Assembly (NCBI GenBank): GCA_031213475.1
Contig: JARUPZ010000020.1
Span: 3,340,975-3,404,974, forward strand
Reading direction: 5' to 3'
DNA: 64,000 nt
DNA from: Nereocystis luetkeana
Lineage: Eukaryota; Sar; Phaeophyceae; Laminariales; Laminariaceae
Made by a program: the position numbers and the translations under genes. This document shows, one piece after another, positions 15,301-64,000 of this stretch (position 1 is the stretch's first letter; each line of letters starts with the position of its first letter). A model generated the notes under the pieces. The model was not told the origin of the DNA. It saw only the letters and a program-made list of their open reading frames with translations, and made no database searches.

Positions 15301-16789
15301 AAAGAACTGCTGGAAAGGTCCGGCAAGTAATGAAAGGAGGCGGTTTGGAAGTGGGAGCTCTGAGAGGCCAGGGATGCACCAACGGAGCACGCTCAGGGGT
15401 TGTGATCTAAGTATGTAGTTCTATATATCGTCTGACACGTCTTTCGATTAGCACATGATTCAATGTGTGTATACTTTGTATACCTGGTACGTACAAACAT
15501 AGAACTAAAACACCAGCTGCTGCGAGATCGAGGATTTTTCGTCGAAAACTCTCAAAGTTTACGAGCTGTGCGTGATAGTTGTTACCCTGGCACCCAACAC
15601 CACTCTAAACGGAAATATAAGGATGGTTTAGACTTTCACATTAATACGAAGCGGTCCTTCTATTTCCGTCCAAGAGAGGTATATCGTAACGGCCATATTC
15701 ACAAGATCTGCGTGATTGTAGATCACGATCTGTCCGATATTTGTCTAGACAGCAGCACAATTTAACCCCTTTAGAACCCCAGTCCCGTTTTGGGGACAAA
15801 CTACTTGAAATTTGAGTGAATTGTCCCCAAAACGGGACTGCGGTTCTAAAAAGGGTTAAGGACGACAAACAGCGTGACAAAAGCACCGTACTACTTCAAG
15901 AACCGTCAACGAGTCCAACCGTCTCCGGGAGCGCTTCTGAACGCCGTTAGTGGGGGCGCTGCTCCTTCCGGTTTGTCCGGGGGCGATCGACATGATACGG
16001 CTGCTCCCGCATAACGTGCTACTACCACTGCTGTCCCCCGCAATTTACGGACTGTCTCAGCATCAAAATTGAGTAAAAGCGGTCGATATGCTTAGCGACG
16101 GAGTGGTACAACGCGTGCGCAGAATGGCAGGGAAGAGGGGGGGGGGGGGGGGCGAAAGGGGGGCGAGGGGGAATGGGGGGGGAGGCGGTCTGCCCAACAG
16201 ACTGAAGCCTGGTTATGGCCATCATCGTCATGATGCACTCCCTTCTTTGGGGCCTAAGTAACTAGCATGGCGCCACCTGGGCAACTTTGCGTATCTGTAT
16301 GCTCCAGCGCCTGCCTTTCGTATTTTCTTTCCCCCGCGCCCGTGTTTGTCCCTTTTTGTCCCTTCCTTTTTTTATCTTTCTTTCTTTCCCGTTTGTACCT
16401 CTTTGTGTCTCTGTTTGTATGTTCCGTTTTGTTTTTTATAGTTTTGCTATCTTCTTTTGTTTTTGTTTTTTTTTGCTTCGCTTCATCTTCTTTTTTTAGC
16501 GGTTTGTCTGCTAGTCTCCTTTTTGCTTCCCTGGTATCCTTAGTGTTTTTCTTGTTTTTGCCTCTGTTTTACTATCGAGGTATTTCTTCCACTCCAGAGT
16601 TATTGGAGCCTGTCCTGCGACCACGGACTGCACTGTATTGTGGCGATGAGTTAATGTGACAACAACAACAACAACAACTACAACAACACCAACAACACCA
16701 ACACCAACACCAACACCAACACCAACACCAACACCAACACCAACACCAACACCAACACCAACACCAACACCAACACCAACAACAACAGC

Positions 16790-25800: not shown

Positions 25801-28172
25801 AGAAGATCGCTGAGGGTAAAAACCTCCTACGAGTTAGCCTGGAAAGTAAAAGTGATGATTTAAAAAAAAAAAAAAAAAAACGAGAACGATACGTATAATG
25901 TTTGAAACATTTACGAGCACTATATCCCTGATTATACCATACGCACTGCTGTTGCACAGCCTTGACGCTTTGGGGAGGCGAACTAAAGATCAGGAATATC
26001 AAGGAGCCCCAAAGTGGTACCACAACGTGCGGTCTCACCAGCCGAGCTCCCCTTGCCCTCGGCTTGTCGATTCGGCATACCATGTACGCACTTCAACGCG
26101 CACATAAGCAGACGGGCTGTCCCTCCCGGCACCTGTCCCCTCTTGGAGGCGCAGATTGCCAGCTTCACCCCGTGCTCCAGACACGCCTCCTTTACCGCCG
26201 CCACCATAGCCTGGACGTCCTTGTTTTCCGGAGGAATTCTCAAAAGCTGGTCCCGAAGCTTGTCAGCGCTGTACTGCCAGTCCTGCACGAAACACGCACG
26301 GCGGCGAGGTAAGTATTCACAGAGAACATTTGTGAGATGGGTGTATCTCAGGTTCGACTCGGGTCCGCAGCAAAAAAAATCTTCGTTTGCTGGGTTGTCC
26401 GGTAGGAGGCGTTTCTCTGCCGTCAGTTGAGCGATATCTCTCATGCAAGAGCGCGCATGAGCAAGTGTCCCTCCGCTATCGTGGGTACATATTGTCTCTC
26501 GTACGAACGTGGTGGCCACAGATCTTCGCGGGTCTGATCGAAATTGAGGCGGGGCAATTCCCAGCCTCCGTCGCCAAGCAATTGCTGACGACAGCCGTCA
26601 CGATCGTCGATGCGAGATGACTTCTGTCCTCGTCTCACACATCGGTAGAGGTCCGCGGGCGATCTATGCCCTCTTGACCGCGCGGCAAGACGTCAAACTG
26701 TTTTGTTTTTTTTTCCCGGTAAGAGCGGATACGACGATTTCCCTGGTTTCAGTACGAGGGGCCTTATTTCGTACCGGGTACATAGGTACCGATGAAATGT
26801 CGTCAGCTCTTCGTCCTTTCAAGAGCACACGACCCAGACATGTACCAGGTAGACAGCGGACAACAGGCAGAGAGCGGAGAGCGCAACGTTGCAACGCTGC
26901 CGCCCATGAAGCACCAGCAGGCAACACCGTGCGTGTGTGACACACCCATCTGCGCTGTACTGCGGTGGCTAGTTGTAATAATCGGAACCTGCGGTCCGTA
27001 ATTCACCATTTACCTATCTTTGCTGCTGCTGCTGCCGCTGCTGTGTGCGACAGACCCACGCACACTCTGAACGGAAAAGTAAGCACCGTTTGGATTAAAT
27101 ATTGATACGCCAACGTTCCTTCTATTTCCGATGTCTTGTATTTATTGCTCCGAGCACACACCAGACACCTACTGCTGTAGACAGCGAATACAATGCAGAA
27201 ACACAAACAACATGTCCGGGAGGGGAACCTTGTACTACGGTGGGCATAGTAAACAGGACCAAACATTGTTAGTAAAAATAGAGAAATATATTAGGTTTTT
27301 GTGTCTACCGTAGGTCCTATTTAATATGATCCCCCGTAACAGTCTATTTTGAGTGACCCTTTTTGGAATGGCTGTTTTCTCTGTAGGGGAGGACGCTCTA
27401 CAGGTATTGGTGCTGTAGGAGTCCTGTGCCGCGCGACGACACCTACTGTAATTGCTACGCGGGTACTTTGCACCCCCCCCACCCTGTTCCCGATTGGCCC
27501 CCGGACTCCACTCCGACAACCCTTCAAACCGGTCCTGGATAAATAATAAGCCGCCGGCAGGGCCCACCAAGGCACCCTGGCCAGACATTGAGCTGATCTA
27601 CCAAAATCGAGGGTTTCCATCAAAACGGCCTCAGCGCAAAGCAAACGCCTCCAAAATGTTCATAATATCCTACAGGGTGCGCAGAGTTTGATTTGCACAC
27701 ATACCCGGTGTTGCAACTGGCGCTCTCCGTGCCGCGCGGGACTTTCCGCGAGGTATTACGGGGGACCATAGTTAATAGGACCTATGGGATACATAAAAAC
27801 CTATATATTTAACCATTTTTACTAACAATAGTTGGTCCTATTAACTATGTTCCCCCGTAATAGTTGGAAGCGGCAAAGCAACAGCGAGCAACACGATTGG
27901 GGAACGGCGGCACGACATGCGGTCCCTCTGATTTCCAGTTGCAACTCGTGCAAAACGTATGTATCTCAAACGTATATACGTACGTAGGTTGATTTGCCTG
28001 AGTTAACGTCTGAGGTGCACGATTTGTTTCAGTGATTACAGCAGCGCTTCGTGTGCATCCTACTTGTATTTCCTTTTTTCCTGGGGTACCCTTCTCCAAA
28101 GATATCGGAGCCTATCCTGTGAGCACAAACGATTTAGGCCGCATGAGTTCATCTGAGAACAAACAACAACAG

Positions 28173-28203
<31 letters not shown>

Positions 28204-29540
28204 AATAATTTAATAGTCCTAACAACGATCACTGGTAGGACCGACCACTGCAACATCGACCAATCGTACCTACCAACGACAGCACCCGATCGCGGTGTCC
28301 AACCAATCACATCCTCGACCAGTCGCAACTCAGCACCGACCAGTCGCACTCAGCGTCGACCAGTCACAGGCAGCATCACCAACCTCAGCACCGATCGCGC
28401 AGAATCAACAACTCGCAAAAAAATCATACTTGTTGTTTCAACCCTTTTACTACCGCAGTCCCGTTTTGGGGAAAAATTACTTGAAAATTAAGTGGCTTAT
28501 CCCCAGAACGGGACTGCAGTCTTGAAAGGGCAATATCGCTTCGTCGATTCGAGGTGTACTTTGGCGAGTACTGGTACGGCGGTACCTGGTCCCTGGCGGG
28601 GGTGCTTGGAGTTGCTGGGCCATTTGCGGGGCTTCCCACCGGCTGCCCAACGTTATTGGCGCTAGTAGGCACGCTCGGTAGCCTCGAATCGTCCGCCACC
28701 GCCGCACCCTCGCACCGGCCCACCTACGCAGTTGAGCATCGGAAGAAATGTGTACCAGGTATGCATCAAACGTACGTACAGCAATACAAGGCACAAGCAT
28801 TACAGCGGAACATTACTTTCGTGCGAAAGGTGTGGAAAGTATTCATATGTATGCAGTAGTTACGCAGATGTCTGTCTGAAACCAACCAAAAAGACGTCGT
28901 TTGATTTTTCAGGGGGGGGGGGGTTCACATGGTTGACGATCGTGGAGTGGGTCTTCCTCGATTATTTAACTAATTATTCATGGCAGTTGCATGGAAGCTT
29001 CCGCGCAATTGCATGCAATTTCGTGACAGTGCAAGTGTCAAGCGAGTGTCATGGAAGTGTCACGCGATTGCGCAAGCCCAGAATACACAAGTTGCATGCA
29101 ACTGTAGCGAACTTGCAATCAACTTGCATGCAATTTCATGCATTCACCCGCAAAGCTCGCATGAATCGCATGCACATGCGTGAATTGCGTGCGCTTGCCA
29201 AGGACTTCCAGTCGACTTGCGTGCAGTTGCATGCACTCGCCTGCAAGTTGACTGCAACTCGGTTGCAAGCTAGAGTGCAAGTCGGATCCGTGCCCTTCCC
29301 GAGAGACAAACGAATACCGCAATGTTTATGGACAGCATATTTCAGCAGACGGCCGATGGGCTCAATTCTTACGGCGGCGATTTCTGTTTTTTTTTTTTTT
29401 CGATTTTTCCAATGAATGGTCGGTTTTGGTGGCTGGCACACGGCGACCACCACTCCGACCGCCCCGACAAGGAGCCCCAACCCCAGGGGACCGCTTCCTA
29501 GTTGCTCTACCGTTGGAGGCGATCCGTCATCTGTCATAAC

Positions 29541-29580
<40 letters not shown>

Positions 29581-32500
29581 GCTGTGGTGATGTGCATGTG
29601 TGTGCGGTGTGTCCTGCGCGCCGCGCCGCGAAAATTAATACCGGGTACCAGATACCAGGTATTATATACGCTGTACGTTGAAACGGTTACGATGCCCGAT
29701 TTAGGACTTGAAGGCGCGACTTCGATCCTCGCAGAGAATATGTCTATTTTTTTCAAACTTTTGTGTTTCATTTTCATCATGAACGTAACCCAGGCACGAC
29801 AGACAACAACAAACAGCACATGAGCGGGCAGGGCGCGTGCTACAATCAGCTGGCTGTAACGCTACACACGCCTGCCGCCCGCCGGCAGAGCGCGAAGCAA
29901 CATCACGCGTGTGCGGTACTTTATCCTCGCTGTATTGCTGTGGCTTTCTAATAATACAGTAGTTGCTTGATTATCGGACCCTGCGATCTGTAGAGCTGGG
30001 GGGCCCTGCTGTTGTGTGATACATGCATGCTTCCCGAGGTACAACAACGCTGCTGCTGCTGCTACTGCTGCTGCAGTTCGATTTTCGTGGGCAGCCGATT
30101 GTGGTCAAGACTTCCAGCCCCTTCTTCGGTGCATCCTTTTCTAGATCTGCGAATATTATCCCACTATTACGGGGGACCACAGTTAATGGAACCTATGGTA
30201 TACATAAAAACCTATACACCATTTTTACTAACAATATTTGGTGCTATTAACTATGGTCCCCCGTAATATTAATACTATTAATACTACAGTAGTTGTACTG
30301 CTGTCGTGTTCCGTGTAGTCACGCGTGCGTGTGCGGTGTGCGCAATGTGTCACGCGTGGGGTGCTTCCAAACCTTTTTTTTTTGCTGGTACGTGCGTAGT
30401 CCTCGGTTTTGCGCGGGAGAGGCGTTCTTTGCCGTGAGCGCCACAACCAAAAGACATGCATGAACATACTATTAATAACCAACCTCATACCTGGTACAAT
30501 GTTTGGCGGAAACATCGAGCAAATCTCAGAAAGCGAAATCAGTAAAAAAATACTCGTAAGACCTATGCCAACGGAAACGCGAAGTTCAAAAGTTTTTTTC
30601 AAATATATCGCTTTAAAAAAACAGCCGAAATTTTTCTCGTACCGCCGCTGTGGGGAAAAAAGAGAAAAATGTTTGATTTTTTCTTTTTTTTTCCCCAACG
30701 GCTGCAGGCGGCGCAGTTTGTGTTTTTCTGGTCGCAAATTGTCAACACGGTGATCGAAACCAGCTTGTGCGACGATCGACGCTCGATCTCGACATAGACT
30801 CAGCCTACGGCCAACCCGCTCGGTATCTGGCAAGCCCAACGAGTATAGATGACGGCCTCGAAGATATCAGGTGGATCCATGATCTAGGGGGCGAGAGCTT
30901 GCCGGCGGCGTCCTACGGTATCCTCCCAAACCTGAAAAAACTCTATTTTTTGCCATTCGAGACGGATGGAGAAGTTTTGTCTTCTGTTTTGTGCAAACCA
31001 GCGGCCAAATGTTTTTTTTATCACACGCCTGGTCAGCTCCCGCCACACGCCACCGGCCATGGTGTGAAGGCGGTGACCCTAGGGTGGGTCGGAGCCCCTA
31101 ACGAGCACACTCCGTTCAGAATTCATGACGCAATCGTTGGTTTTGTTGATCGTTGTCTGTCGAGGACTCGGAATCTCGCCGCTTCGAACCAAAGATCGGC
31201 CTGAGTTTTTCTCAAGCCGATGTTGGCCTAACATCGGCCCCAGATTTGCTTTTTTCGGGCTTTTCCCAAAGTTAGGAACTTTTTTTTTTTTTAGGTGGCC
31301 CATAGGAAGCGTGTTCTGTTTTTTTTTGGCGGGTATCTTTGAAATTCAAACTTTTTATTGCAACTTCGCTGTACCATTGGCATAGGTCTAAGCAACAGCA
31401 CTTCCACGCAGATCTGTGTAATAATTTGAATTAGGCATTCTAAAACCAATATCGCATGCTGTATCGTTTTCAAATCGTTCTTGCGCGACTCCCTACTGCA
31501 TACTGCTGTACTGGTACCAGATACCAGATACTCGTAGGCATGTCGGAGGGAACCGTGTGCCTGGTACGAGTATACTATTAATAGTAAAAGTGTTTCAGTT
31601 TTTTGTTTTTTTAATCATCACTTTTACTTTCCAGCCTAACCTATGCCAATGGAAACGCGAAGTTCAGAAGTTTTTTTTCAAATATATTGCTTTTAAAAAA
31701 CAGTACCGCCGCTGTGGGGAAAAAAGAGAAGAATGTTTGATTTTTTCTTTTTTTCCCCCCAACGGCTGCAGGCAGCGCACTTTGTGTTTTTCTGGTTGCA
31801 AATTGTCAACACGGCTATAGAAACCAGCTCGTGCGACGATCGACACTCGAACTCGACATAGACTCAGCCCTCGGCCAACCCGCTCGGTATCTGGCAAGGC
31901 CAACGAATATATATGACGGCCTCGAAGATATCAGGCGGATCCATGGTCGAGGGGGCGACAGCTTGCCGGCGGCGTCCTACGGTATCCTCCCAAACCTGAA
32001 AAAAACTCTATTTTTTGCCGTTCGAGACGGATGGAGAAGTTTTGTCTTCTGTTTTGTGCAATTCAGCGGGCAAATGTTTTTTTATCATGCGCCTGGTCAG
32101 CTCCTGCCACATGACACCGGCCATAGTGTGAAGACGGTGACCCTAGGGTGGGTCGGAGCCCCTAACGAGCGCACTCCGTTCAGAATTCATGACGCAATCG
32201 TTAGTTTAGTTGATCGATGTCTGTAGAGGACTCGGAATCTCGCCGCTTCGAACCAAAGATCGGCCTGAGTTTTTCTCAAGCCGATGTTGGCCTAACATCG
32301 GCCCCAGATTTGCTTTTTTCGGGCTTTCCCAAAAGTTAGGAACTTTTTTTTTTTTTACGTGGCCCACAGGAAGTGTGTTCTGATTTTTTTTGGCGGGTAT
32401 CTTTGAAATTCAAACTTTTTACTGAAACTTCGCTGTCCCATTGGCATAGGTCTAACTCGTACCTGGTAGGAGGTTTTACCCTGGGCGATCTTCTGACAAG

Positions 32501-35221: not shown

Positions 35222-36132
35222 CCCCCCACGGCTGGTGCAAGCAATGTCTTTGCTTGGTTGGTGAAAACCCGACGTGCTCCTTCCCGGCATTCTAGGGATG
35301 CGAGGGTCTATGGTCATACGACTACGGCCATGCATGAGATCGAGTACACCCCCCCGCTCCATGTCTGAGGCTCGGGTTAGATCATTTGTGCGGGTGGAGA
35401 ACCTTAATTCCGCTCAAGGGCAATTATCGTATCACGTAGAAGTCCCTATGTACCTGGTATATGGCACCCACGAAGGGGTCATACATTACATACATTGTTC
35501 TCTCTGGAAGTGGTCACGCCAGAAAACGAGCCAATTAACTCGACGCTGTCAACCTTATCACGCAAGAAAGTCCGCCTCACAAGCGATTCTTAGCAGGATG
35601 TAGCTCGCCTTTCATGCAACTCACTGAACACCACACGGCGCTTGCCGCCTGGTGCAGGCAGTATGCCTGCCTGGTCAGTTAAAAACCCGACGCCGTGCCC
35701 CGCTCCGGCGTAGTAGGGATGCGAGGATCTATGGCCATACGACTACGACCGTGCATGACATGAGCGCACCCCCGTCCCTGCCCGCTCCGTCTCGAAATGG
35801 ATGCGAGGTCAATGGTCAAAATAATAAGGCAAGCAACAACCGAGTACGCAACGCCGCTCCCCCCCCCGACCTTTAAATTAACTCATTGAAGCTGTCATCC
35901 ACATGCAAGTCCGCCTCACAAGCGGTTTTTAGTAGGATGCAGGTCACCCTTCATGCGACTCGCCGGACACCTCACGGCGCTTCGTGCTTGGCGCAAGCAA
36001 TGTCTGCCTGGTCGGTGAAAGTCCGACGTGCTCCGTCCCGGCATGCTAGGGATGCGAGGGTCTATGGTCATACGACTACGGCCATGCATGATATCGAGCA
36101 CATCTCTTGTATCGAGTACCCCCCCCCCCCGA
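35222..36132 (+). repeat. Three R1 copies with an R2 fragment between
   Basis: R1 at 35222-35356, 35540-35770 and 35878-36132; R2 in reverse form at 35775-35880. Each R1 ends in C runs after GAGTAC or a variant. Confidence 0.78.
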
Positions 36133-38313: not shown

Positions 38314-41300
38314 CTGGTGGTGTTGGTGTTGGTGGTGTTAGTGAAGGCGGTGTTGTAAGGGTAGCGGCGGGGGTGTTGGGTGGCATTGACATGGTTGTAT
38401 TATTACGGGGGGCCATAGTTAATAGGACCTGTGGTGTACACAAAAACCTATATGTTTACCCCTTTTTACCCACAATATTTGGTTCTATTTACTATGGTCC
38501 CCCGTAATAATAGTTGGTGGGGACATTGGGGTTGTTGTTGCTATTAATAGTGGTCGTGGTGGGTGGTCTCCGGGAGGGACAAAAAAAACGAAACCTGGAA
38601 GAGGGGGAGGGGGTGCACTCATCATCATGATCGGATGACCATATCATAGACCCTCGCATCCCTACAAGGGAGAGGGGTACTCGATATCATGCACGGCCGT
38701 CGTCGTATTACGGGGGGCCATAGTTAATAGGACCAAATATTGTTAGCAAAAATGGTCAAATATACAGTTTTTTATGTATACCAGACGTCCTATTAACTAT
38801 GGTCCCTCGTAATAGTATGGGTTGTGGTTGTTGATAGTGGTGGTGGCCGTGGTGGGCGGTGTCAGGGAGGGAAAATAAAGCGACACCGGAGAGGGGAGAG
38901 GGGGGGATAAATACGTTATACTCGTACTGCTACGGTAACTTGGGTTAGGGTCCCACACGCTGTCAAGTGTCGGATAGCATGGCGACGGGCAGGGGGGGGG
39001 GGGGGGGCGCAGAGGTCTGTGACGAAAACGGGCGTAATTTCGTTAAAGAACGTAATTTTCCAACATCTAACAAAAGAAACAAAATTTTACACACACAAAA
39101 TACGAAAGATACGTCACCGTCGACATCGTGAATCATGGAAAAACTTTAACTTAGCGGCCATGAACGATCCCCTCCACACCCCCAGCCCCCGCCAAATCTG
39201 AAACGCCTTCCACCCCTGATATCTTCCCCCCGCGCCCGCTCTCTCGTACGCCCTTCCATTTCCCCCCACTTCCCGTTCCCTCCACCACAGCAAGGCATCT
39301 GCGCTCTGCATGTGCCCACCAGTTTGTTCATCATGCTAAGCCTGTCCAGCCAAGGGTCGTGGGCAGCTAAGCCTATGAACGCGATGTCGCTCGTTTCAAA
39401 GTTTATGAAGGTTAAAACACAGCTCAATACTATACACAAGAGGGCACCCTCTTCTGAGTAAGAGGGTATGCGCGCGTGGCATATTTTTTTAACTCATGAC
39501 ATGAGCTTGTGTGAATTAATAATTGTTTTTTTGGGGGGACGATATATGACATATGTCAGCCATAACAGCTACCATGGTACCTGGTATAGACAAAGGAATC
39601 CCACTCTCATCGCCAACCCCCCCCGCCCCCCTCAGCTCCACCCCAGCCCCCCCCCCCCCCCCCGACCCCCTCCCCCTACCGCCACCCCCATCCTTCCACC
39701 CCTCCAGTTACTACCAACCCCACTCCTACCCTCACCTGAGCCTTGTCGAGGTCAAGGATGAGGCAGACGGAGGTATTTGAGGCCGTGGACGGGTCCTGGG
39801 CGAGGTTCCTGATCCAGTCGCGCTCCCCGCAGAACTTGTTGACAACTCTCGCGTTAGACTTGGGACATGAAGAAAAAATGGATTTCGAGTCGTGGAGGCG
39901 ATTGGCGGGTGGCGGGGAGTAAATATAAACATTCATGCTGTTCAAGAATATTTCTTCACAGTAGCAACGGTGATCCGGGGGTTTCAACGTTCGGAAAGTA
40001 ACAAAAGGGTTTCGCATCGTGGAGGCGATGGGGGTACGGTGGTCAGGAGGGAGTATACATGTACACATTGTCCAAGAAGTGTTTCACATCAGAAACGGTC
40101 GTCCACGGGCTTCAACGTCCAGGGATGGGAATGAGAGGGCGGGGGCGGGGGGGGGGGGGGGACGTACACGTTTTATACTATCAAAAGAAAAAAATAACGC
40201 GGGGGCGGTCGTTCTGCCGACAGGATTACATTGCCGAAATTAAACACCTCGGATAGCGTAACACTCAGATAACACTAATCTACGTTATGGGACCCAACAC
40301 ATGGACCTGGCAACGCACCAACGTAGTGCTAGCACTGGAGAAGCAATCACGGTAACGCGGTAACACATGTGTTGACTGGAAACCCGCGAACGCGCGCATG
40401 CCTCCCCGTTCTGTCTCTGCTTGATTGTCACGTCAAGACGGAAGTCGTAAAGAACCCGTTTAGGACTGCACTCCCGTTGTGAAGTAAAAACATTTGGAAT
40501 TAGAGTCAAATTTAGGTACATGTGCAGTGCAGTACTACCGTGCGAGGGTCCAAGGTTTTATGTCACGTTCGTGTTGCTGAGGCGATGGGGATTGGGATGA
40601 ACGGGGGGGGGGAGGGGAGGTCAGGGAAAAGCCAATACTCGAGGTAGGCAAAGGCAATGAACAATACTCGTAGACAATAGGGATTAGATCATACTCATAG
40701 GCAATTTGTTTTTTTGTTCTTGTTTTTTTTTTGCTCATCCCATTTATTATCTTCGCACATCTTCTCCTCTCTCTCCTTCCAACTCGTAACTCAGATCCGG
40801 GGTCATATAGCAGGCTCTTCTACCCCCTTCCCGCTACGGTACGTGCCTTCACTTTTATCGCGAGAAGATTTCGGCCTTTTCTTCCCTCGTCGACTCGCAT
40901 CGAATTGTGCCTACCCACGCTGCAAGGCGCTCTCAACAATCACGCAATATGCCAACACTCGCAGGCAATACTAAATAAACAATGCTCGTGTTATGCCTGG
41001 TGGGTAGTAGGTGTTAGCCTCTCCTCGTAGCCAATAGGCTAAACGATAGTCGTAGACAATAGGCTAGACGATAGTCGTAGACAATAGCCAATACCTGGTG
41101 GGCGGTAGGCCGTGCTGATAGGCAATAATAGGCCCTCCATGCTATTTTTTATTAGCCCCACCACACGCTGGTCGCACCCCTCACCTCCGAGCGCTTGATG
41201 AGGCCGTTCAAGCCCCCCACGGTGTCGCACCAGTTAAGGGCATCGATGTAGTCCTCTACGCAGAGCATGGAAGGCGTGTTGATCGTCGACCCGTCGAAGA

Positions 41301-42927
41301 TAGAGCGGTCTACCTTGCCGTTCTTCACCTGTAACCAACACATTTTTTTCAATGAAAAACAGGCATTATTGTCGGAGGTGCAGAAGGGGGGGGGAACGGG
41401 GCGAGTACTCGTATGTTGCTTGCCTTAGGCGTTTGACCATTGACCACGCATCGCCTTCGAGACGGAGCGGAGGAGGGGGGGTTGTCCTCGTTACCATGCA
41501 GCATGGCCGTAGTCGTATGACCATAGACCCTCGCATCCCTATAGTACCGGGACAGGTCACGTCGGGTTTTAACCGACCAGGCAGACAGTGCTAGGGGGGG
41601 GGGGGGGGGGGGGCTCATTTGTTGCTTGCCTTAGTCATTTGATCATTGACCACGCTCCTATTTTAGTAGAGAAACCTCCAACAATTGGGCGTTCACTGCG
41701 TTTTTCCCATGTTGCATTCAAAGAAACTGGCACCAACACCACCACAAAGTACCTACCCACCACCATCGGCACTAGCGCAAACGCCCTCATGCGAACCCGT
41801 CCAAGGCCAAAAACGCCATTGTATGGCCATATGACCACGGTCATTGCCAAGACAATGAGTACACTCCCTACCCCCCCTCCACGGCGATTACAGCATCATC
41901 TAACCCCCCCCCAGGCAACAAATCCATCGTGCAACTCCCCCGCCCAAAGCGCAAACGCCACCATGCACCTCGTAATCCCCAAGGCCAAAACGCCATTATG
42001 AACACCCCCAATCTCAAAAACACCAGCTAGCACCCCCGTCCCTTGAGGCAAAACCACCATCGTCTAACTCCCCCCGATCCCTCCCCGCCCCGCCTCCCCG
42101 CCCCCCCACCCTCCTTCCCCGTTCCCCTTGCCAGGGACGAGCTTACCATGCGGAAGATTTTGGGCAGCGGTCGGTCGGGCTTGAAGGTTTCCAACCTCTC
42201 CACCGCCCGGGGGGACAGAACCAGAATTCCGTGGGATCCCTCACCCCCTAGCACCTTCTGCCACGAGTACGTGCTGACATCCACCTATTATTATAGCACA
42301 AAAACGAACAGAAAAAAGCAACCAAGTACGGAGAGGTGGGCAGGATTAGGCGTGAGAGGGTGGAACGGGATGGGCGGGGGGGAAGGGTATAGAAAGTAGG
42401 GTACAGCAGTCTGGGTGTGTGTGCTTTCACAGTGAACCGTTCTTTCTACGCGTCGACATCCAGCACAACCAGTGCCCCGTGACGATACAAATAACAGCGG
42501 ACAGGTTCTTCAATCCCACAGAGATACAACTTCTGCGGTCACAAAAAACTACGCCACAGAAACATAAGTACTACATTGATATGCAGTACGAAATCAGAGT
42601 GGACAAAGCAATGCCATGTTATCGTACTGGATACGACCGTCACGACATACACATTCTATAAAAGAGAGATAACAGCAGTGGAGTGGGATGAAGTGGGGGG
42701 GGGGGGGGGTTCGTAGCAGGCAGAGGGTGCATGTTCCGTACTAAGCAGCACATTCAGTTTTGGCGCCTACAAAAACAGCGTCTGCGTACCCGGGAGACTG
42801 TAAGCTGTTACTGCCGCTGTTGCGCTCACTTTCAAGGCTGCGTTATCTACTCTCCATACCGCAACACAGCGTGGTATATCTTGTGTTGTAATTTGTGGCC
42901 ACATCGCTGTGTATATATATTACCAGG

Positions 42928-42984
<57 letters not shown>

Positions 42985-45900
42985 TTAATAATAATAATAA
43001 TAATATATATAAATCTCTTAACAACAGGAATGCGGATCAGTACCGAAACTGGACGTGCTGGGTCTCGACGAATAACACGTTTTTTTCATGTGGAGAACAC
43101 ACACCGTATGCTGTGCTTGTCGTACCCACTACGATGGGCATGCCATTGCACCGTCTGCTATCCTCCCTGCACTACAATGTACCATCTCTGAGTAGAAAAA
43201 TGTGGCGGGGTGAGGTAGGGAGGAAAGCATGTGGTGGTTGGAGTGCGGTTGGATGGGGGGTTGTACTCGATAGGATGCATGGTCGTAGTCGTATGACCAT
43301 AGACCCTCGCATGCCCACAACGCCAGGACGGAGCATGTCGGGTTTTCACGGACCAGGCAGGCATTGCTAAGCGCCGTGGGTTGCTCGACAGGTCGCATAA
43401 AGGGTGAGCTGCATCCTACTAGGAACCGCTTGTGAGGGGCGGACGTGCAACGGATAACAGGTTCGAATATAACGATTCGTTTTCTGGTGCGGCGGAGTGG
43501 GGCGCATGGCAGAGGGCGGGGTGGCATGCGGTGAGGTGGGCGAAGATTAGAGTAGAACACAAGGGGTAGGGTGGGTGACAACCTGGAGCCCCCGAAAGCG
43601 CGTGTTCGAAAAAAACTGTGCCGAGAAATAATGCGGGGTGCTATAGCAGACCGGACCCGGACTGCGGCTTGTTCGTTCGCCCCCTCAGTCGCTCGCAAAA
43701 GCGCAATACAAAATATAATATTATATATAAAGCAAGCAAGACAGCAAACGAGCGAGCAAGCAAGCAAGCGAGAAAGAAAGCAAGCGAGCGAGCAAGCAAG
43801 CAAGTGAGCAAGCAAGAAACGAAGCAACTAAGCGAGCCAGCAAGCAAGAAACAAAGCAAGAAAGAAAGCAAGCATGGAAGAAAGCGAGAAAGAAAGCAGG
43901 CAAGAAAGAAACGGAAACCCACCTTGTTCCACGGGATGTCCATCGCGAAAGCAGCCGACGTGCAGTCGTTGAACGTCAGCCCCTTGCGGTCATCCGATAT
44001 CCAGTCACCGTTGGGCACCTGGAGCGATACATATAACGGCGTGCAAAAGAGGTCAAACGAAATGCCAGGCTGTACGATAGGCCGCGGGCATTCGCGAGGA
44101 GTCACGATAATCGCAAACGCACGCAACACCAGCTACACTGTCTTGATATTAATAGCATGCCTGGGTATATAATAAATGCCATACGGGGGGCTGTAGACGA
44201 TCACCGACAACCATTATACGTCAACGTCCAGTTCGCAGCCATCTCACTTGTAGCCGACAGCACCAGTAGTCACACAATACACTATGGTGTACCTGGTATA
44301 TCACAGGCGTATTCGGTCGGAAGTTGGCGCGGGTGTATACTAAATGCCCTGCGGAGGTCGTAAATTAGTGTAATAAGCTTTGCCACAGATGGAAGCAATG
44401 ACCTCATGCCCTCTATAGATGGGACCCGCAATTATCTGTAAATACATATCGCAAAAAGACGCAACCGGCACACGTTTGTACATGGTCATCCAAAAATAAA
44501 AGACAACCACTACGTGTTACTATCCAAAACGAAAACGACCGAGGAATACAGCAAGCAGAGGCACAAAGCTTCACCGATATTACCAATACAAATCCACAAA
44601 ACACAACCTATAACCAAAACCCTACAATCACACGGAGTAGCCCTCAACCACCACCAAGAGCCACACAACCCCAGCATTCCCAACCCTCCCACGTACACAA
44701 AGACGTTGGGAGGCGTGCGGGGAGGGAGGGAGGGTGTACACGATGCCATGCATGGCCGTAGTCATAGGACCACAGGCCCTCGCATCCCTACAATGCCGGG
44801 ACGGAGCACGTCGGGTCCCAGGTGAAGAGGATGTCGGAGTCGTGGGTTGGTTTCGGTCAGGTCGTACGTATAGAGATTGGTAGGCGTGGCGCGCGGGGGG
44901 GGGGGGGGGTTGCGGCTCACCTTAACCCCTGAAGTAGTCCCGTTCCAGGTGAAGAGGATGTCGGAGTCTGAATTGGTCTTGGTGAGGTCAGGCAGGCAGC
45001 CATAGTCGGCCGTGTGCTCCGTTACCTGGTCCTTGAGCCCCAGGTGGTTCATCGCATCGCCATGCCACCCCTTGTGTCGTGGACGGCAGAAAACGCATGG
45101 TAGGGTAAGGGTTGGGTTGGGGTGGGTTGGAGTGGTGTGGGGTTAGGTGGGGTGGTGTTCGGTATGGAGGCGTATTTCGTCCTATTAATGGAATACATAT
45201 ATAGGCAACGGGACCACGGTCAAGGAATAGTGGGGGAGGTGGTAAATGGGGGGGCAGGGGTACTCCGAAGTTTGCGACGTGCCAGACCACAGCACTGTAG
45301 CCGACATACCCTAGAATTGGGAGCAGTGAATGCATAGCGGGGGGGGGGGGGGGGGGGGGGGGTGAATGGATAGAGAACAAAGTGTGTGGGGGGGGTGGGG
45401 TAGGGGATAAGGCGGGGGGGGGGGGGGTATATGGATAGGCGATAGGGGGGAGGGGACGGCGGGAGACAGTACGAATATTGCATGCATCGGACAGACCATC
45501 CAACTCCAACCAGACATTTCAGGGCATAGATCTGTATGTATCTATCTGTATGATCTAGCTCGTGTCGTCGGAGTGGGAGTCGAATGACCTGCATGATATA
45601 TGACGCATTTCCTGCGTTAGACCTGTGCTACACAAGATCCTGCACAGCGCCTCATTAACGGCAGGTTGTGATAACATCTAGAGGATCTACCGTAGATACA
45701 TAGATCGATATCTGTCCATAATGTGTCCAGAACCGCTCACCTTGCCGAAGGATTCCCAGTGGCATGAGTCGATGTCGCGGGGGCCAAGCATGTTCCACAT
45801 CGCCATCTCGTACGCGCCCGTATCTGAGGCGGGTACCTGGAACAGGGGATAAAAGACGACAGAGAAGGTAAGGAAAACAAACAAAGTAAAAACAGTAAGA

Positions 45901-48900
45901 CGAAACAAACGAAGAAAGAAAAAGCTAATGAAAATGCAAAAAACAAAACAAAACAACGGAAGTATATGGTTTCATGAGCCAAACAATGAGGCTAAGGGAA
46001 GGGAAGGCAGGGCAAGACGAGCCAGGTCAATGCAAGACAAGTCAAGACAGGTCGAGACAAGTCGAGACAGATCGAGACAAGTCGAGACAAGTCAAGACGA
46101 GTCAAGGCAAGTCAAGACACGTCAAGACACGTCAAGGCACGTCAACACGAGTCAAGACAAGTCGAGACAAGACAAGACAAGTCAAGACAAGTCGAGACAA
46201 GTCAAGACAAGTCAAGACAAGTCAAGACAAGTCAAGACAAGTCAAGACAAGTCAAGACAAGTCAAGACAAGTCAAGACAAGTCAAGACAAGTCAAGACAA
46301 GTCAAGGCATCCAATCAGCATCACAACTCACGATGCCGAGCAGGTAGTCGTCCGGGACGCCGAGGATGCGCTTCGACTCCTCGATGGCGTACTTCAGGCG
46401 AGCCTTGCCGACGCTTGAACGGTGGGAGCGCCCGAGCGACCCCGTCTTCAGTTGGCTCGGCGACCATCTATCATGCGGTGCAGGGTAGTAACGGCAAAAA
46501 CGGTGTCGCCGATAAGGAAGGGATGAGGGAAGGAAAGCACGGAGTCGGCGGAACAAGAACATAGCCCAACAACTTTTTGGACACCATGTTTAGCATGCTT
46601 CTGACTGACTATTACGGGGGACCATAGTAAATAGGACCAAACATTGTTAGTAAAAGTAGGTAAATATATAGGTATACTTATACCGTACGTCCTATTTACT
46701 ATGGTCCCCCGTAACATTATACACGCCTCAGCTGAGGAAAGAATTGCACCCAGTATTGTTGGAAATTCAGTTGTTTTGGTTCTACCCCAGGAAAAAATAA
46801 ATGATTAAAACAAAAAAAATACCCGGCAGGAACTCACCCTGGGCGCTTTTCGCAAGGGCCCGAGGATAACTCAGGGTTAGTCGAAAATAAATGATTGGAT
46901 AATAGTACAGCATCTACTCCTGAGGACGCGTGTAACGACAGTGGTAAATTTGTTTAGGCCAATACCACTCTGGTCGATAATATAAGTAAGGTTTATACAT
47001 TAATATACAGACCAAGCGGTCCTTATATTCACGGCCAGAGTGGTATGTTTTTGACTGATCGGGCTTCTTGACCCCTTCAGAACTGCCACACAGAACTGCA
47101 ATCCCATTGTCGGGACAAAAACACTCGGAATTGGAGTCAAATTCAGGCCAAAATGTTTTCGACAGACCGGGTTCCTTAACCCAGATTCGTTGGGATACCA
47201 TTATTAACAGTGGTGCTTTCAACACCAATTTTCGTGAAATGCCTACTTGTGCTTGATAGTCGCTTCGTGTCGAGGGTTGAGGGTGTTCGGCGGTTCGGTT
47301 CGGGGCTGTCTTCCTTGAACAAGCGCGTGGTATTCTGAGCTGCAGCAGGGCGCTGCAGCACGCCGTCTTGAAGATTTTCTTCAATGTGACGACACCTGAT
47401 ACTCAATAGCTGGAATTGGCTCAAAAGGTATTGCACTTTTTAGTGTTTCTCAAAAGTCAGTCTTGGGTGAGTTACTATTACTATTACGGGGGGCCATAGT
47501 TAATAGGACCTATGGTATACATAAAAACCTATATATTTAACCATTTTTACCAACAATATTCGGTCCTATTAACTATGTTCCCCCGTGATAGTGACTTTCT
47601 ACATAGCTAAGAGCTGGAGTGCCTCAGAAAAAATAACCTAAGACGCCCCCCCCCTAGAAGGCTCAGGAAAGTTTATAAAAGATGCCACCCCTAAAAAAAC
47701 TCAGAAAAATTCATTAAGGCGCCACCCCTAGAAGGCAAAACCCCTACACCGTAGCACGCGTCTTCTCAAGGCAGGGACGTAAGGAGCTGCAAGGTGCTTG
47801 TGCGGCATGGTAATACTTATTCCTACTATTCACGGGGGACCATAGCAAATAGGACCATACCAGGTATATTTTAGTAAAATTAGCGAAATATTTACCTGGT
47901 AGTTTTTTTTGTGTGTACCGTAGGTCCTACCAGGTACCTGGTATTTAATACCGTCCCCCGTAAGACGCTTATTACCCATTTGGGAACCCTGGGACGGGTT
48001 TCATTCACCCAAACGACCACAACCTTGCTCCTGATCTACCGTCTACGACCAGCGGGAAGCGCCCGGCAAGTACGGGTATAGGACAACTCTGCCACCCGTG
48101 CCGTGCGACTCCTTGCTTCCAACCATCGTAACTCGGGACACCGACCATTTTATCATCCCCCAAATCAAAAGCAGAGACCGGTGCTGAAACCATCGCTTTT
48201 ATACCGTCGATGCCCCCCCCCCCCCCCCCCGCCCCCTCTGCAGTCCTCAAGAGGGTCAATCAACCCTTCCATTTACGGGGGGGACTATATTAAATAGGAC
48301 CTACGTGGTACACACAAAAACCTCGGTATACATTTCCCTATTTTTACTATTACGGGGGACCATAGTTAATAGGACCTATGGTATACATAAAAACCTACCC
48401 TGGTATATATTTAACCATTTTTACTATCAATATTTGGTCCTATCAACTATGGTCCCCCGTAATAACAGTACTTGGTCCTATTTACCAAAAATATTACCGC
48501 GGGGCGACAAACTGCAGTCCCGTCTGAGGGTCAAACTACACCACTATCCAACTATATATTTCCCCCCAAATAAGGGACTCCAGCTCAAAAGGGGTTGAGC
48601 CGTGCTCGTCGTATTACATCCGTCGGTGGCGTATACATGGGTCCCGAGAGGGTTGCTACCCTCGGCGCAGCACGCGTAACATTCGCGTGTCAGCTCACCC
48701 TGGGCGCTTCTTGCAAGGGCCCGAGGAGAACTCGGGGTTGGTCGGCTTGTTGGGGGGCATGGGGGTGCCGTACACCTGCCCCTGGGCCGTCTCGTCGTCG
48801 TCCATGCGGAAGGACGGGTCCTCTCGGCTGTCGATGCCCGCCTGATGCAATGGTTGGTTGGTTGGATGGATGGATGGTTGAATTGACGGATTGGTCGATG

Positions 48901-51441
48901 AATTTGATTGGTTGATTTGATTTGATTGCTAGGCTGATTGATTGATTCGTTGGTTGAGTTGGTTGAGATGCCTGGTTGATAGCTTTGATCGGTTGAGTTT
49001 ATTGATTGATTGATTGATTGATTGGATTGGTTGGTTGGTTGATTTGATTGGTTAACTGGTTAACACGTTGGTTAATATATTGATTGATTGGAGTGGTTGA
49101 TTGATTCGATAGGTTTATTGGTTTGAATCGCTTAGCTGTTCGATTTGATTGGTCGATTGATACCTGGCAGATATACCGTACGTACGTCGTAATATCGCTT
49201 CGAACCGACAACAAAAACCACGCACAGCAGGTGAGCAAGTAACTGACCTACGCACGCAGTGAGCGACCTACGCACGCAAGCAGAATAAACAGGTGGGAAT
49301 GCCAACGGAACCACGTACATGTTACACATCGCGAAAAGGGACACGGGGCAACCATTACTATGTACCTGTGTGACATTTCGGATGTCGGGGATCTTGCGGA
49401 TGATCTGCAGAACCTCCTCCGAGCAGGGCGTGTCGAGGTTGAGGCAGCTCATCGCGACGCCGCCGGTCCGGACACGGCCAAGCGCGAAAGACGCGATGTT
49501 GATCTGGACGAAAAAAAACAACAACAACAACAACGACGACAAAGACAACATCAGATGAGCAACGGCAACGACGGCGAAAAGAGACCAACAAAAGCAGCAC
49601 ACCAACAACCAAAACGACAACAACAATAACAACAAAACCAGCAGCAGCAGCAGCAGCAGCAGCAACAAAAACAGCAAAAACAACAACAACAACGACGACG
49701 ACGACGACGACGACAAAAACAACAAAAAGCAACAAGCAGCAGCAAACCGAACAGCAAACAATTAAACAACGAACAAACAAACAAACAAACACCGACAACA
49801 CCACCAACAACAACAACAACAACACCACCAACACCACAGCCATCATTCCCAGTCTCACGCCATTATCGTTCAGGATGGCAGTGACGGCGCGGAGCATGCC
49901 CGGAGAGTCAGGGTTGTTGAACATCAGCATGTGCCCGCTGGGGTTGAAGTCGATCTCAAGACCATCCACATCGACCACCCGGGTGTCAGCTCCAAAGCAA
50001 GTCCCTGCGCGCACACACACGCAAACGCACGCATCGCAGGCAGACAGCCAGTCCACGTAGGGGAGGGGGCGAGGGGTTGTGGTCAGGGTGGCGGGGGGGG
50101 GGGGGGGGGTGGGGGGGTGTACTCGATAGGAGGGATGTACTCGATCTCATGCATGGCCGGAGTCGTATGACCATAGACCCTCGCATCCTTGCAATGCCGG
50201 GACGGAGCATGTCGGGTTTTCACCGACCAGGCAGACATTGCTTGCACCAAGCGCGAAGCGCCGTGAGGTGTCCGGCGATTCGCATGAAGGGTGAGCTGTA
50301 TCCTACTAAGAAGGCGCTTTTGAGGCGGACTTGCATATGGATGACAGCTTCAAGGAGTTGATTTAATTTCCGGTGTGGCCACCTCCAGGGTGGGGGTAGG
50401 ACGGGTGTTTGGTGTGGAGTAGGGGGGGGGGGGGGGGGCAAAGGGCAGCGTGATCTTGTTCTTCGAAATCGTGGCTGGTTGTTGTTGTTATTTTCTGCAG
50501 CAGAAAACTAATTGGGGGAGAGGGCCTCATCAACAATCAATACAGCACCGGCAACAACATCAACACTGACGTCGACACCAACACCACCAACACCGCAACA
50601 ACCACCAACCAATCCAACCCAACCCAACCCAACCCAACCACCACATCCAAATCTAACGGTCCGCCCAACTCCCAATTCTGATCTTCTCCTAGAATCTACC
50701 CTGCAGCGGAGCGTTACCTGTCATTGATCGTCTGCCGTTAAGCACGCCTTCGATCTCAAACTCCACGGTGAGGCCGTTGAGGTATCCCTTAGGGTCTCGC
50801 TCTGAAAACGCCACTTCAATAGCGAGACCCGTCTCCTTCGCCACCGCGGCCGCATTGACGTAGTTCACCTGTTATCACAAGTATGATGGTCGTCAGCAAC
50901 ATCCGGCGGAGCAAAACGTTCCGCGTATAGAAAGGAAAAGACGAAGGAGAAAATATATAACAAGTACATGCGTACATACTGCAGAAAAACAAGGAAGGAC
51001 GAGCAAAACATGAAAGAAAAAATGAAGGCTAGAAAACAACACAGAACGGAGAAAAAAAACAGCGCGCGGCAAGGCAGTAAGTACCCTGGGTTGCTTGAAG
51101 CGAGCCGCCGAACAACACCAACACCACCGGCATCACCCCACTATTACGGGGGGACCATAGTTAATAGGACCAAATATTGTTAGTAAAAATGGTTAAATAT
51201 ATACCTGGTAGGTTTTTATGTATCCCACAGGTTCTATTTACTATGGTCCCCCGTAATACCACAATCAACATTTTTCACCACCACCACAACACACACCTCC
51301 TGAGCAAGCAAAAGGTTGAGCGCCCCCTTGATGACAGCCGCCGACATGGGCCCCGCCATCTCCGGCACCCCAAGGCTCTTGCCGTGTAGGGTCACCTTGA
51401 TGCTGCGGACCTGCGCTCGTCCGGTGCAACCCGAAAAAAAA

Positions 51442-51489
<48 letters not shown>

Positions 51490-56802: not shown

Positions 56803-56843
<41 letters not shown>

Positions 56844-56888
56844 CAGCAGTAGTAGTAGTAGTAGTAGTAGCAGCAGCAGCAGCAGCAG

Positions 56889-56935
<47 letters not shown>

Positions 56936-58562: not shown

Positions 58563-59682
58563 CTGCAAGCCGGGTTGAGTAGGTGGGTGGGGGCGGGGGG
58601 GGGTGTGCTCATCAGCATGCATAGCCGTAGTCGTATGACCATAGACCCTCGCATCCCTACAATGCCGGGGGGGGCAGAGAGGGAGGGGGATTGTAATTTT
58701 TTGGCGGGCGATGTCTCGTGTCTATCTACTGCGTACATATCTAGGGCGGTCCGTGAATAGCTGGGGAAGTGTCGTAAAATATAAAACACGGTGCTCGTGA
58801 AGTATGTTAATCGCATCACATGATATGGTCTCCGTACATATGACCTTCGTATACGCATATATGATGTGGTGTTGATAAAACATGGCGTCCATAAATTCTG
58901 GCGCCCGTAAAAAACGGTCTTCACAAAAACCGTTTTCGTAAAAAAAAAGTCTGAAAAACATACCAGGTATGGTGTTTACGCTGCTCACACCACGACAAGA
59001 CCGCACCTCTCACTGGTGTTTGCTATATATATACCTGGTACCATGGTATCTGGTAAGGAGCGTGCTCGCACGTCCACCGCTGCGTGTCAATACAACATCA
59101 CAGCATGTCAGTACTGCCGAAAGCCGGTACAAAAATCCGCTTACAGGCATGCACGCGATTCGCCATGTATCTCAGCATACCGAACAAAGCATGCCAGCAC
59201 TCCTGCACGTATACAGGCGTGAGATTCGCCGATGCCCCTTCTTGAAATTTCCAACAAACCGCTGCTTTGCAATAACTTACACCTCGAAAACATAGATCAT
59301 GACCTACAGATAGATCATGTAGATCATATACAGATATATCAGCTACATCATCTACAGACATATCAGATACATCATCTACAGACAGATATGTTTCGAACCC
59401 CTGTGCAATGCTTCACCCCTAGGATAGATAGATAATCTACAGACCAGATAGATCATCTACAGATAGATCAGATAGAGCATCTGTAGACCCTAACCTGTCG
59501 TTGCAAGATGCTGTGGGGGATTATTTTTGAATACATTAGTGCGGATCCAACCCAGAAAACGTGTCCTACATCGTTGTTTCGCTATTAACCGAACCGATAC
59601 GTACTGCTATATGGAGCCCTCGACCTCTGTATACCAGCCATCGCACACAGGTGGAGAAAACGAGAAATACTATGTACCTGGT

Positions 59683-59770
59683 ATGTATGTATGTATGTAT
59701 GTATGTATGCATGTATGTATGTACCAGGTATGTATTATGCATGTACCATGTATATATGTATGTATGTAAA
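59683..59770. repeat. TATG microsatellite bearing TACCWGGTA scars
   Basis: About 17 TATG units; TACCTGGTA at 59675 and TACCAGGTA at 59722 interrupt them. Confidence 0.88.
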
Positions 59771-60359: not shown

Positions 60360-60488
60360 TTTCGGGGGACCATAGTTACTACCTGGTACCTGGTATGGTA
60401 TACATAAAAAACCTACCAGGTATATATATTTAACCATTTTTACTATCAATAAACAATATTTGGTTCTATTAACTATGGTCCCCCGTAA
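60360..60488. mobile_element. M1 TIR element with three TACCWGGTA scars
   Basis: TA flanks at 60358 and 60489. Scars at 60380 and 60387 (sharing a TA) and at 60414. Confidence 0.88.
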
Positions 60489-61400
60489 TAGTGTACGGGT
60501 ATTTTTTATTCGTTTCGTACACAGCAACCCTCAACCATTTTCTTGTTTTTGATTAGGCGGGGGTAAAAGCTCGTAAGCTCCCCTCGGCCACGGCGATGTC
60601 GCGGTGTAAGCGGCGGCACCAAGATAAAAGTGCCCTGGGCACCAACATCTCCCCACAATAACAGTAGCAGGACCGCGCACGATAGATTTTCATAATGAAT
60701 TACGACGAGTAGGGACAAAACGGTTTTGATGTGAAGGAAACAAACACCGGACATACTTAATATGAAATATCATAGCCATCATCGTAGCAACTTGCAAGCC
60801 TATCGGGGGGCAGAAAAAAACGGATCTGTCTCTAAATAATAATACCGCTCGTAAAGTAACACTATTACAAACAGTGCTTATATTTTGGGATGCATGGGTA
60901 TGAAATAAAATGCATCATACTTCGAAGATACCATGCCTCGAAGCATTTGTCACACGTGTGTGGGTTCTTCACATTAAACCGTTCTTTCTACCCGTCGACG
61001 TCCAGCGCAACCAGTGTCCGTGACGATACTTGAATCCTATTATAATAGAAGAGATACAAGTTCTGTGGTCACAAGCCTACGTACGCCATAGAGAGTAACA
61101 CCTTGCATCTTTTTTTGGGGGGGGGGCAGAAAAAGCGGCCATCATTAAACCATCCCTGAGACTATTAAAAAAAAGAAAAGTATATCAATCTTGACTAAAC
61201 TCAAACTCTTTTTAAAAATCATTCGGTACATACGGGTACCTGGCACAAAATGCCAGGTATCATACCATGCATACCACACACATGAAACAATTTCGAGCCT
61301 TTCGGGGGGCCAGAAAATGCGGCCAAGTTATCAAACAGTCCCAAAAGTACCTGGTATACGTCGATCGTTTGTATATTTGACACCTGGTACCTGGTATGTA

Positions 61401-62580: not shown

Positions 62581-63869
62581 ACGAGGGGTTCGTTTTGGGC
62601 AACCGACCATTCGTCGAAGCTGAGTCGAGTCGTGAACAGCTCGTACCGGGATACCTGGAAGGTGTAGGTTTGCTCACCACGTCGCCGAGGAGAAGGTTGA
62701 CACACACTATGTACTAGACGAATAGTAAAGTAACCCTAACCATCATCCTTCGCCAATCCAATCAGGGCGACCCTAACCCTGACTCTAAGCCAATCAGACT
62801 AAAATCTCGAATAAGTTGTCGGTTCTACCGGGAAGGGGACCAAGCGACGAGGGACGGAAGCAGTAAGGCCAAGGAGGCGCAGGGAAGCCCCGAAGGAAGG
62901 GAGGGGCAGGGGTTTACAACTAGCGTTGGATATCGAGTGATAATCGAGTTCGACACGATACCGATGAACAAAAAACGAATCGATACAGACGAACTCGATG
63001 CTTGATAGACACAAGTTTTTCGTTTCATAGCTGCACAAGAAAACACGGAGGGGATACCAGGTGGTAGAGGGGAAAACACGTCCGATACATGTTCGATATA
63101 TTCGATTTATTGAAACACGCGATACGATGTCCAGCACTAAGGTATACCCTGGGCATGTCTTACTCGAAGTTTACTACCAACGCCATAGGGGCACAGACTC
63201 AAACAACCATAACATCGAGAAGCGCGGTCCCATCAACCGTCTACGGTGATAAATCTACCGTACTCGTATAGCACACAAGAAAACTAAATACCCTCCACGT
63301 TTTACAGAAAATCGATTCTGAAATTCGTCCCAGGGGGTGTGTTAACTTATCACCCCCCTGTGATATATATCTTGCCTTCCTCATATACGGGATATATATC
63401 CGGCATGAGGCCAAATAAAACCCTTAGTACGCGCGATTAAAGTATGAAACACAGGTTGCAAAAAACGTGATCTCCAACGAAAAAAATCTTAACTCATAGC
63501 TGTACTTATTTTTTTTTCATTTTTAGAAAAAATACGGCAACCCTTTCGTGACTTGATTATATATACAGTATTAATACTATTAGTACAGCGACATGATTTG
63601 AAAAAATCGGCAGCACGGTCGTATGTACATATATACCTGGTACCAACTTCCTAGGGAAGCGCGTGCAATAGTTCGAGTAAGCCAGGTACGTCATGCACGC
63701 GTGTCGTGCATTTCCTTCCGTTGTACTTCGGACACATCCGCTATATATACGCGTATATGCGCAGTCTATGAGTAGGTCGATGCTGAAATCGTACGTAATA
63801 TTCGACTTCTTACTTTTTTTTGTTTTCCATCCCATCAATCATCTTCGCCCCTCTTTTCCCTCTCCCTCT

Positions 63870-64000
63870 TATCAGGGGGGACCATAGCAAATACGGAGTA
63901 GGACCTATGGCACAGATAAAAACCTACCAGGCACCTGGTATATATTTACCTATTTTTACTAACAATATTTGGTCCCATACGTAAACAGTTTTTTTTTCCC
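63870..64000. mobile_element. M1 TIR element running off the window
   Basis: Starts ATCAGGGGGGACCATAG. CCTA|TATATTT carries a 14-base double insertion CCAGGCACCTGGTA, the shared TA mutated to CA. Confidence 0.8.

Follow-up and report, generated by a model that had tools for sequence, protein, structure and literature searches.

In the window, i.e. the whole 64-kb stretch of Nereocystis luetkeana DNA analysed here, 20 of the 26 open reading frames of at least 150 amino acids were run against Pfam; pieces of a 2-hydroxyacid dehydrogenase were found in two and a sub-threshold ACT match in one. An Rfam scan of the window at gathering scores gave no match, and a tRNA search found none. Long poly-C/poly-G tracts are plentiful (560 overlapping CCCCCCC words, strands pooled). 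The window also carries a nine-base word, TACCWGGTA, at 38 places by exact count (Table 1). The initial annotation had estimated at least 38 copies, and every coordinate that it named is among them; the full six-base form that it described, TACCATGGTA, is likewise present at 39570 and 59039. Some copies lie in a TA-bounded repeat termed M1, which in the window and in the larger sample described below begins with TTACGGGGGACCATAG. For reasons given below the nine-base words are called scars. The longest scar-free stretch of the window (51202–58961, 7.76 kb) covers the open reading frames that match D-2-hydroxyacid dehydrogenase. This gap may reflect selection; 0.38 such gaps are expected by chance.

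Table 1. Putative excision scars in the window and the evidence for each
Feature	Position	Strand	Evidence
Scar	390..398		word count
Scar adjoining a decayed one	1410..1418		word count
Scar	2372..2380		word count
Scar	8236..8244		word count
Scar	8525..8533		word count
Scar	9968..9976		word count
Scar	12537..12545		word count
Scar	13096..13104		word count
Scar	15481..15489		word count
Scar	17935..17943		word count
Scar	20253..20261		word count
Scar; L024 has the empty site in a stretch of 91% similarity	22897..22905		word count, empty-site test
Scar	23230..23238		word count
Scar at M1 TA site 1; 34 empty sample matches, ungapped at junction	23316..23324		word count, empty-site test
Scar	26843..26851		word count
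Scar	28753..28761		word count
Scar	29653..29661		word count
Scar	30488..30496		word count
Scar	32460..32468		word count
Scar	35451..35459		word count
Six-base scar TACCATGGTA, sharing a TA with scar 39578	39570..39579		word count
Scar	39578..39586		word count
Scar	42921..42929		word count
Scar	44290..44298		word count
M1 copy with four scars at three TA sites	47827..47963		word count, empty-site test
Putative excision scar TACCAGGTA in M1	47858..47866		word count
Putative excision scar TACCTGGTA in M1; empty relatives at window 47504-47559, L015, L018	47893..47901		word count, empty-site test
Double scar, first member (14-bp insert)	47928..47936		word count
Double scar, second member, one TA in common	47935..47943		word count
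Scar at M1 TA site 1; 35 empty sample matches, ungapped at junction	51202..51210		word count, empty-site test
Scar	58961..58969		word count
Scar	59032..59040		word count
Six-base scar TACCATGGTA, sharing a TA with scar 59032	59039..59048		word count
Scar	59675..59683		word count
Scar	59722..59730		word count
Double scar, first member	60380..60388		word count
Double scar, second member	60387..60395		word count
Scar at M1 TA site 1	60414..60422		word count, M1 comparison
Scar	61348..61356		word count
Scar	61388..61396		word count
Scar	63634..63642		word count
Decayed double scar TACCAGGCACCTGGTA at M1 TA site 1	63925..63940		M1 comparison

Assembly-wide (465,085,209 bases in 1,987 contigs), TACCWGGTA is found at 182,395 places, or one per 2,550 bp; since the word set is its own reverse complement, this figure is the number of places. 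A genome-wide count against a control, as proposed at the outset, gives 1,744 for the reversed word ATGGWCCAT, and the excess is therefore about 105-fold. The density in the window is ∼1.5 times the genome average. A sample consisting of the window and 20 blindly chosen 10-kb stretches (264 kb) contains 105 copies, with 2.4 expected under a third-order Markov model. Eight control words of the same shape were also counted. Six of these occur 0 to 5 times and the other two 24 and 27 times, counts that we attribute to the M1 repeat (TAGGACCTA) and CTA tandem repeats, respectively or together.

The 9-mers might have been spread by amplification of repeats, e.g. M1, that already carried them. Within the 264-kb sample, however, 100 of the 105 scars have no partner with a similar 50-bp flank and are thus regarded as separate events. 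The words are not pieces of a longer shared repeat, an origin that the initial annotation had considered fatal to its reading. Amplification is thereby refuted for most sampled copies and is very improbable as a general explanation, although some M1 copies may share a scar by descent. A hot TA in M1, site 1, is filled in 23% of exact copies, and it holds many different inserts, single, double and triple. Genome-wide, 1,052 exact-flanked copies of this site (534 + 518) carry inserts of 1–31 bases, the reversed control yields 0, and 3,487 exact copies (1,753 + 1,734) are empty. It had been allowed that M1 copies lacking the 9-mer are deletions; this is unlikely since unbroken copies outnumber filled ones. 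A minor error concerns the unbroken M1 site placed at 27754, which is really at about 27,800.

The scar is a 7-bp insertion consisting of CCWGG and a duplicated TA. In an empty-site test, the flanks of 116 scars were joined with one TA left and searched for in the sample. Relatives that are 7 bp shorter and ungapped at the junction were found for 11 scars (127 matches), whereas with control deletions of 7 bp, offset by 14 or 21 bp, each of the four controls yielded 0 to 2 sites. M1 copies make up four of the 11 and account for 108 matches; another four are in a second repeat in L012, two being compared with an empty TA and two representing a double versus a single scar. The scar at 22897 is a separate 91% match to L024; the alignments of the remaining two (L004, L008) are weak and carry little weight. 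The proposal that the words are insertions at TA thus holds, TA-only sites do exist, and members of double scars share one TA, as had been described.

A palindromic 9-mer at such high density could also be viewed as a selected binding or processing site. This can be given hardly any credence: compared with its relatives, where there are any, TACCWGGTA is inserted at a TA; words one mismatch away, among which transitions are foremost, are about as numerous as the intact word; and there are variant lengths, nested forms and a matching transposon in the genome.

The initial annotation attributed the scars to excision of a Tc1/mariner-type element with CCA…TGG ends and suggested a search for one whose inverted repeat begins with CCA or CCAGG. 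A mariner-like element with a TA duplication and inverted repeats that begin 5′-CCAGTCYGACA has been found in the same genome. The attribution to a mariner-like element therefore stands, with the tip involved being probably four bases, CCAG. The element was reached via its transposase and not via the tip sequence. Genome-wide, searches for a Tc1-type transposase gave no PF13358 match and no exact PDLNPIE-type motif. PF24964 (DUF7769) represents the N-terminal region of mariner transposases in plants and oomycetes; 19 matches to it were found, and seven stretches covering some of these were read (L040–L046). All three open frames examined (L043, L044 and L045, of 560, 492 and 468 codons, respectively) have a DD39D triad, i.e. 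39 residues between the second and third D, and share the motifs QQDNAP(A/S)H and SPDTNILDLGFF. PF13358 is weak in L044. The Pfam family HTH_Tnp_Tc3_2 (PF01498) is present in all three frames, above cut-off only in L045, and a profile of the family alignment matches the Mos1 transposase in PDB (E 2.2e-5). The best named relatives are from brown algae (Ascophyllum nodosum, 69% identity; Laminaria digitata, 64%; Ectocarpus and Pylaiella), followed by plants, a diatom and oomycetes. We class the CCAGTC element with the DD39D mariner-like elements, as a member not described before. DUF7769 lies at the N-terminal side of the L043, L044 and L045 transposases, before the Tc3-type helix-turn-helix match, and is thus probably part of the DNA-binding region. 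Mariner transposase copies also occur as inverted doubles in L042, L046 and L059.

The element in L044 is 2,016 bp long, and each of its ends is TA-CCAGTCCGACATTTTATATAGG. Its inverted 33-bp arms (TACCAGTCCGACATTTTATATAGGRCCGATCCG) are 97% identical, a TA flanks it on either side, and several families match its 27-bp tip at 92–100%. In L045 the tip TA-CCAGTCCGACA / TACCAGTCCGACA is present at one end and lost at the other; one end of L046 carries CCAGGTCCGACA / TACCAGGTCCGACA, and the tips of L043 are TACCAAGTCTGACA and TACCTGGAGTCTGACA. The tips of L043, L046 and the far end of L045 are thus different or lost, which counts against the CCAGTC element as the source. The GTCYGACA core was not found in L040–L042. 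Exact element ends (TACCAGTCYGACA) number 84 genome-wide, with 8 for the control and none in the window, and scars outnumber them by more than 2,000 to 1. This count covers unchanged tips, and therefore the number of elements is a lower bound.

There are 16 close inward-facing pairs of TACCAGTCYGACA ends. Fourteen were fetched, L044 and 13 others, and each is bounded by both ends; the search word included TA and the tip, and thus for the 13 only the pairing, interiors and flanks are independent evidence. Eleven are non-autonomous copies of 530–670 bp, one element, of 3,379 bp, shows none of the transposase motifs looked for, and one, of 3,101 bp, appears to contain two head-to-head truncated transposase copies. 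The short copies L047–L050, L054 and L057 are 91–98% identical, and L051 and L053, on different contigs, are 99.8% identical. The tip, CCAGTCYGACA, is not the CTCC-type tip of a Stowaway MITE. A high-copy repeat with CCWGG ends was considered as the parent and rejected, as a boundary search of the sample showed no such family among the matches listed.

It is very probable, judging from the sequences, that each TACCWGGTA is the repaired excision site of this DD39D mariner-like transposon with 5′-CCAGTCYGACA inverted repeats. At otherwise empty sites, tip bases of a resident element are seen between two TAs, as in an excision footprint. The transposase would insert at TA and duplicate it, and the excision cut would leave a four-nucleotide 3′ overhang, CCAG, on each broken flank. 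The overhangs would then pair with a one-nucleotide offset, CAG against GAC, to give two G-C pairs around an A-A mismatch; filling of the single-base gaps and resolution of the mismatch to A or T would result in TA-CC(A/T)GG-TA. Offset pairing replaces the earlier suggestion that one base is lost from CCATGG, which appears to be a minor product. Full four-base overlap would lead to CCAG, CTGG, CCGG or CTAG, and two-base overlap to CCAGGG, CCCTGG, CCATGG or CCCGGG. Over a long time the element would have made on the order of 100,000 moves without becoming common, its accumulating and decaying scars forming a fossil record.

When the possible joins of two identical 3′ tip overhangs were enumerated, an overhang of four bases (CCAG) was found to fit best. 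In the 264-kb sample the three-base overlap form, CCWGG, is present 105 times (2.4 expected). Among two-base overlap forms there are 9 CCAGGG/CCCTGG (0.55 expected), 3 CCATGG (0.39) and 2 CCCGGG (0.16), and thus 14 of the 18 CCNNGG forms are in the predicted set (8- to 16-fold enriched) and 4 are outside it. The four-base forms, CCGG (12 versus 3.5 expected), CCAG/CTGG (25 versus 11.3) and CTAG (10 versus 4.6), together number 47 and are only 2 to 3.5 times expectation. Products of one- and zero-base overlap were not seen in the sample. The length of four is suggested mainly by the excess of CCAGGG/CCCTGG over CCATGG (9 versus 3).

This excess also bears on whether the CCAGTC element might be the source by way of a three-nucleotide overhang, CCA, with a one-base A-A overlap making CCWGG. 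Such a joining yields both CCWGG and CCATGG, and Sleeping Beauty and mariner are described in passages of PMC7827188 as nicking three nucleotides inside the element. It predicts CCATGG as the only six-base form, yet the sample has three times as many CCAGGG/CCCTGG, and a join held by one mismatched base is weak; it is therefore considered unlikely. Less likely still, and quite improbable, is that the source was a Sleeping Beauty-like element, now extinct or very rare, with a five-nucleotide overhang and the tip CCAGG or CCTGG, the CCAGTC element being merely a relative. A five-nucleotide self-complementary overhang with a central mismatch would also yield CCWGG, the tip of L046 is CCAGGTCCGACA, and extant CCAGTC elements are unlike scars at flank position -2. 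However, CCGG, CCAG and CCAGGG are not natural products of such an overhang, no family starting exactly at TA-CCWGG with a clear boundary is found among the sample matches listed, and the flanks of the CCAG element match those of scars at -1, -6 and -7. Four bases fit, and the CCAGTC element with a CCAG overhang remains the preferred source.

Of the first 100 inserts listed at M1 site 1 (contigs C1–C3), 73 contain TACCWGGTA; exact CCAGG accounts for 33 and exact CCTGG for 10. The remaining listed inserts include CCGG, CCAGGG, CCCTGG, CCATGG, CCAG, double and triple scars and a few unrelated insertions. CCTAGG and CCAAGG, once each among the first 100, and CCTGGG, seen in fetched M1 copies, are outside the predicted set. 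The 33:10 asymmetry is not predicted by resolution of a symmetric mismatch and does not fit the model; it may be due to biased repair, or to a common origin of some of the M1 copies. CCAGGG forms are many at this site, making up most of the 100 copies listed with CCWGG followed by A, C or G, perhaps by descent. That such copies are intact insertions was considered and rejected: nine loci were fetched out of 115 places, and no element is present in any of them. Six of the nine have the six-base scar CCWGGG followed by TA (L031, L032, L034, L036, L037, L038); L033 has a further G, L035 a GT-repeat continuation and L039 telomere-like filler. In L039 (C1:21794809-21795460), 75 kb from the contig end, the scar tip in the M1 copy leads into roughly four CCCTAA units resembling a telomere, as though telomere repeat had been used to patch a break.

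With both sides pooled, scar flanks show a preference for A or G next to the TA and avoidance of T (0.05). Further out, T and C are preferred at -2, A at both -3 and -6, and A and T at -7, and displaying each side by itself gives a similar picture for both. Tc1 and Sleeping Beauty have the target preference AYATATRT, which the scar-flank preference resembles. Extant-element flanks (27, after two ending in a scar were dropped) have a mean score of 1.04 under the scar-flank model, compared with 0.99 for scars and -1.03 for ordinary TAs; in 20,000 random draws so high a mean was never obtained. The likeness rests on positions -1 (T in 0 of 27), -6 (A in 19 of 27) and -7 (A or T in 23 of 27). Position -2 differs, with A in 14 of 27 extant-element flanks versus 0.19 in scars, which favour T or C. 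The short copy L047 interrupts an older scar at its TA. No correlation of the central A/T of scars with their flanks is evident by eye.

Decay of the scars suggests long activity. One-mismatch neighbours of TACCWGGTA number 131 versus 51 expected and are led by transitions, the excess being 0.78 times that of intact scars. By our arithmetic, this would correspond to about 0.09 changes per site if all scars were of a single age, or to an onset near 0.27 changes per site if input was constant. Mutation rates of 4.07e-10 and 1.22e-9 per site per generation are given for brown algae (PMC10254074). If scars are neutral, the input would be about 6e-4 to 2e-3 fixed scars per generation, or roughly 1e-5 to 5e-5 per element, assuming some 40 elements; at so low a rate, ordinary hopping by a scarce and very long-lived family would suffice. 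It should be pointed out that 0.09 changes per site, taken literally, would amount to some 80 to 230 million generations. This seems too long a time; the mutation rate may in fact be higher here, or some of the neighbours may be something other than decayed scars. Double scars that overlap are also in excess (6 versus 0.77 expected), which fits local re-insertion or hot sites.

Mariner footprints containing tip bases are already known (PMC1925063, PMC9632168, PMC4423477, PMC7827188). Like Osmar5 of rice, Ppmar2 of bamboo and Stowaway MITEs, the system described here has a DD39D transposase, TA duplications and short non-autonomous copies, and these plant and stramenopile elements also leave scars with one to four tip bases between two TAs (PMC9632168, PMC1925063). 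In contrast, one scar form dominates here and scars far outnumber exact ends. The tip also differs from that of Stowaway, as the TACTCC footprints in PMC1925063 point to CTCC. Sleeping Beauty and Mos1 share TA cut-and-paste transposition, tip-derived 3′ overhangs at the donor and a small end-joining footprint (PMC7827188); they have three-base overhangs, whereas four bases and one-base offset pairing are proposed here. Ectocarpus has Mariner-Tc1 families that likewise represent brown-algal mariner elements with abundant non-autonomous copies (PMC12477816), but there the elements are abundant, and here the scars. The words footprint and excision are absent from the main text of that paper. A literature search, which took in few subscription papers, found none on scars at such scale, and the TACCWGGTA 9-mers were not found in the text of the literature searched.

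On balance it seems probable that a transposon present at dozens of full copies moved at least about 180,000 times and that the breaks were end-joined, so that scars are its main imprint, a dated, genome-wide record of single transposition events invisible to repeat annotation. As a rule, the activity of a transposon is judged by its surviving copies. In this genome excisions can be counted singly, as about 182,000 intact scars, to which decayed ones are added, and the element itself has just 84 exact ends left. The sequence by itself is enough to measure hop rate, target choice, local re-insertion and the outcome of end-joining. With 7 bp and another TA target gained per scar, scars would be a steady source of small frame-shifting mutations that annotation would miss. 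The same test, i.e. the tip of a TA element followed by its predicted join, can be applied to any genome.

A second palindromic scar type, TACTTCGAAGTA/TACTCCGGAGTA (TACTYCGRAGTA), is seen in L038 and other loci and occurs at 2,734 places genome-wide, with 45 for the reversed word. Its parent was not found among the fetched loci; the type may be of the Stowaway (CTCC-tip) kind. Among the listed M1 inserts it is represented by CTCCGGAG, CTCCGAG and CTTCGAAG, and several members of the 570-bp CCAG family contain the TACTCCGAGTA form as a fixed internal feature.
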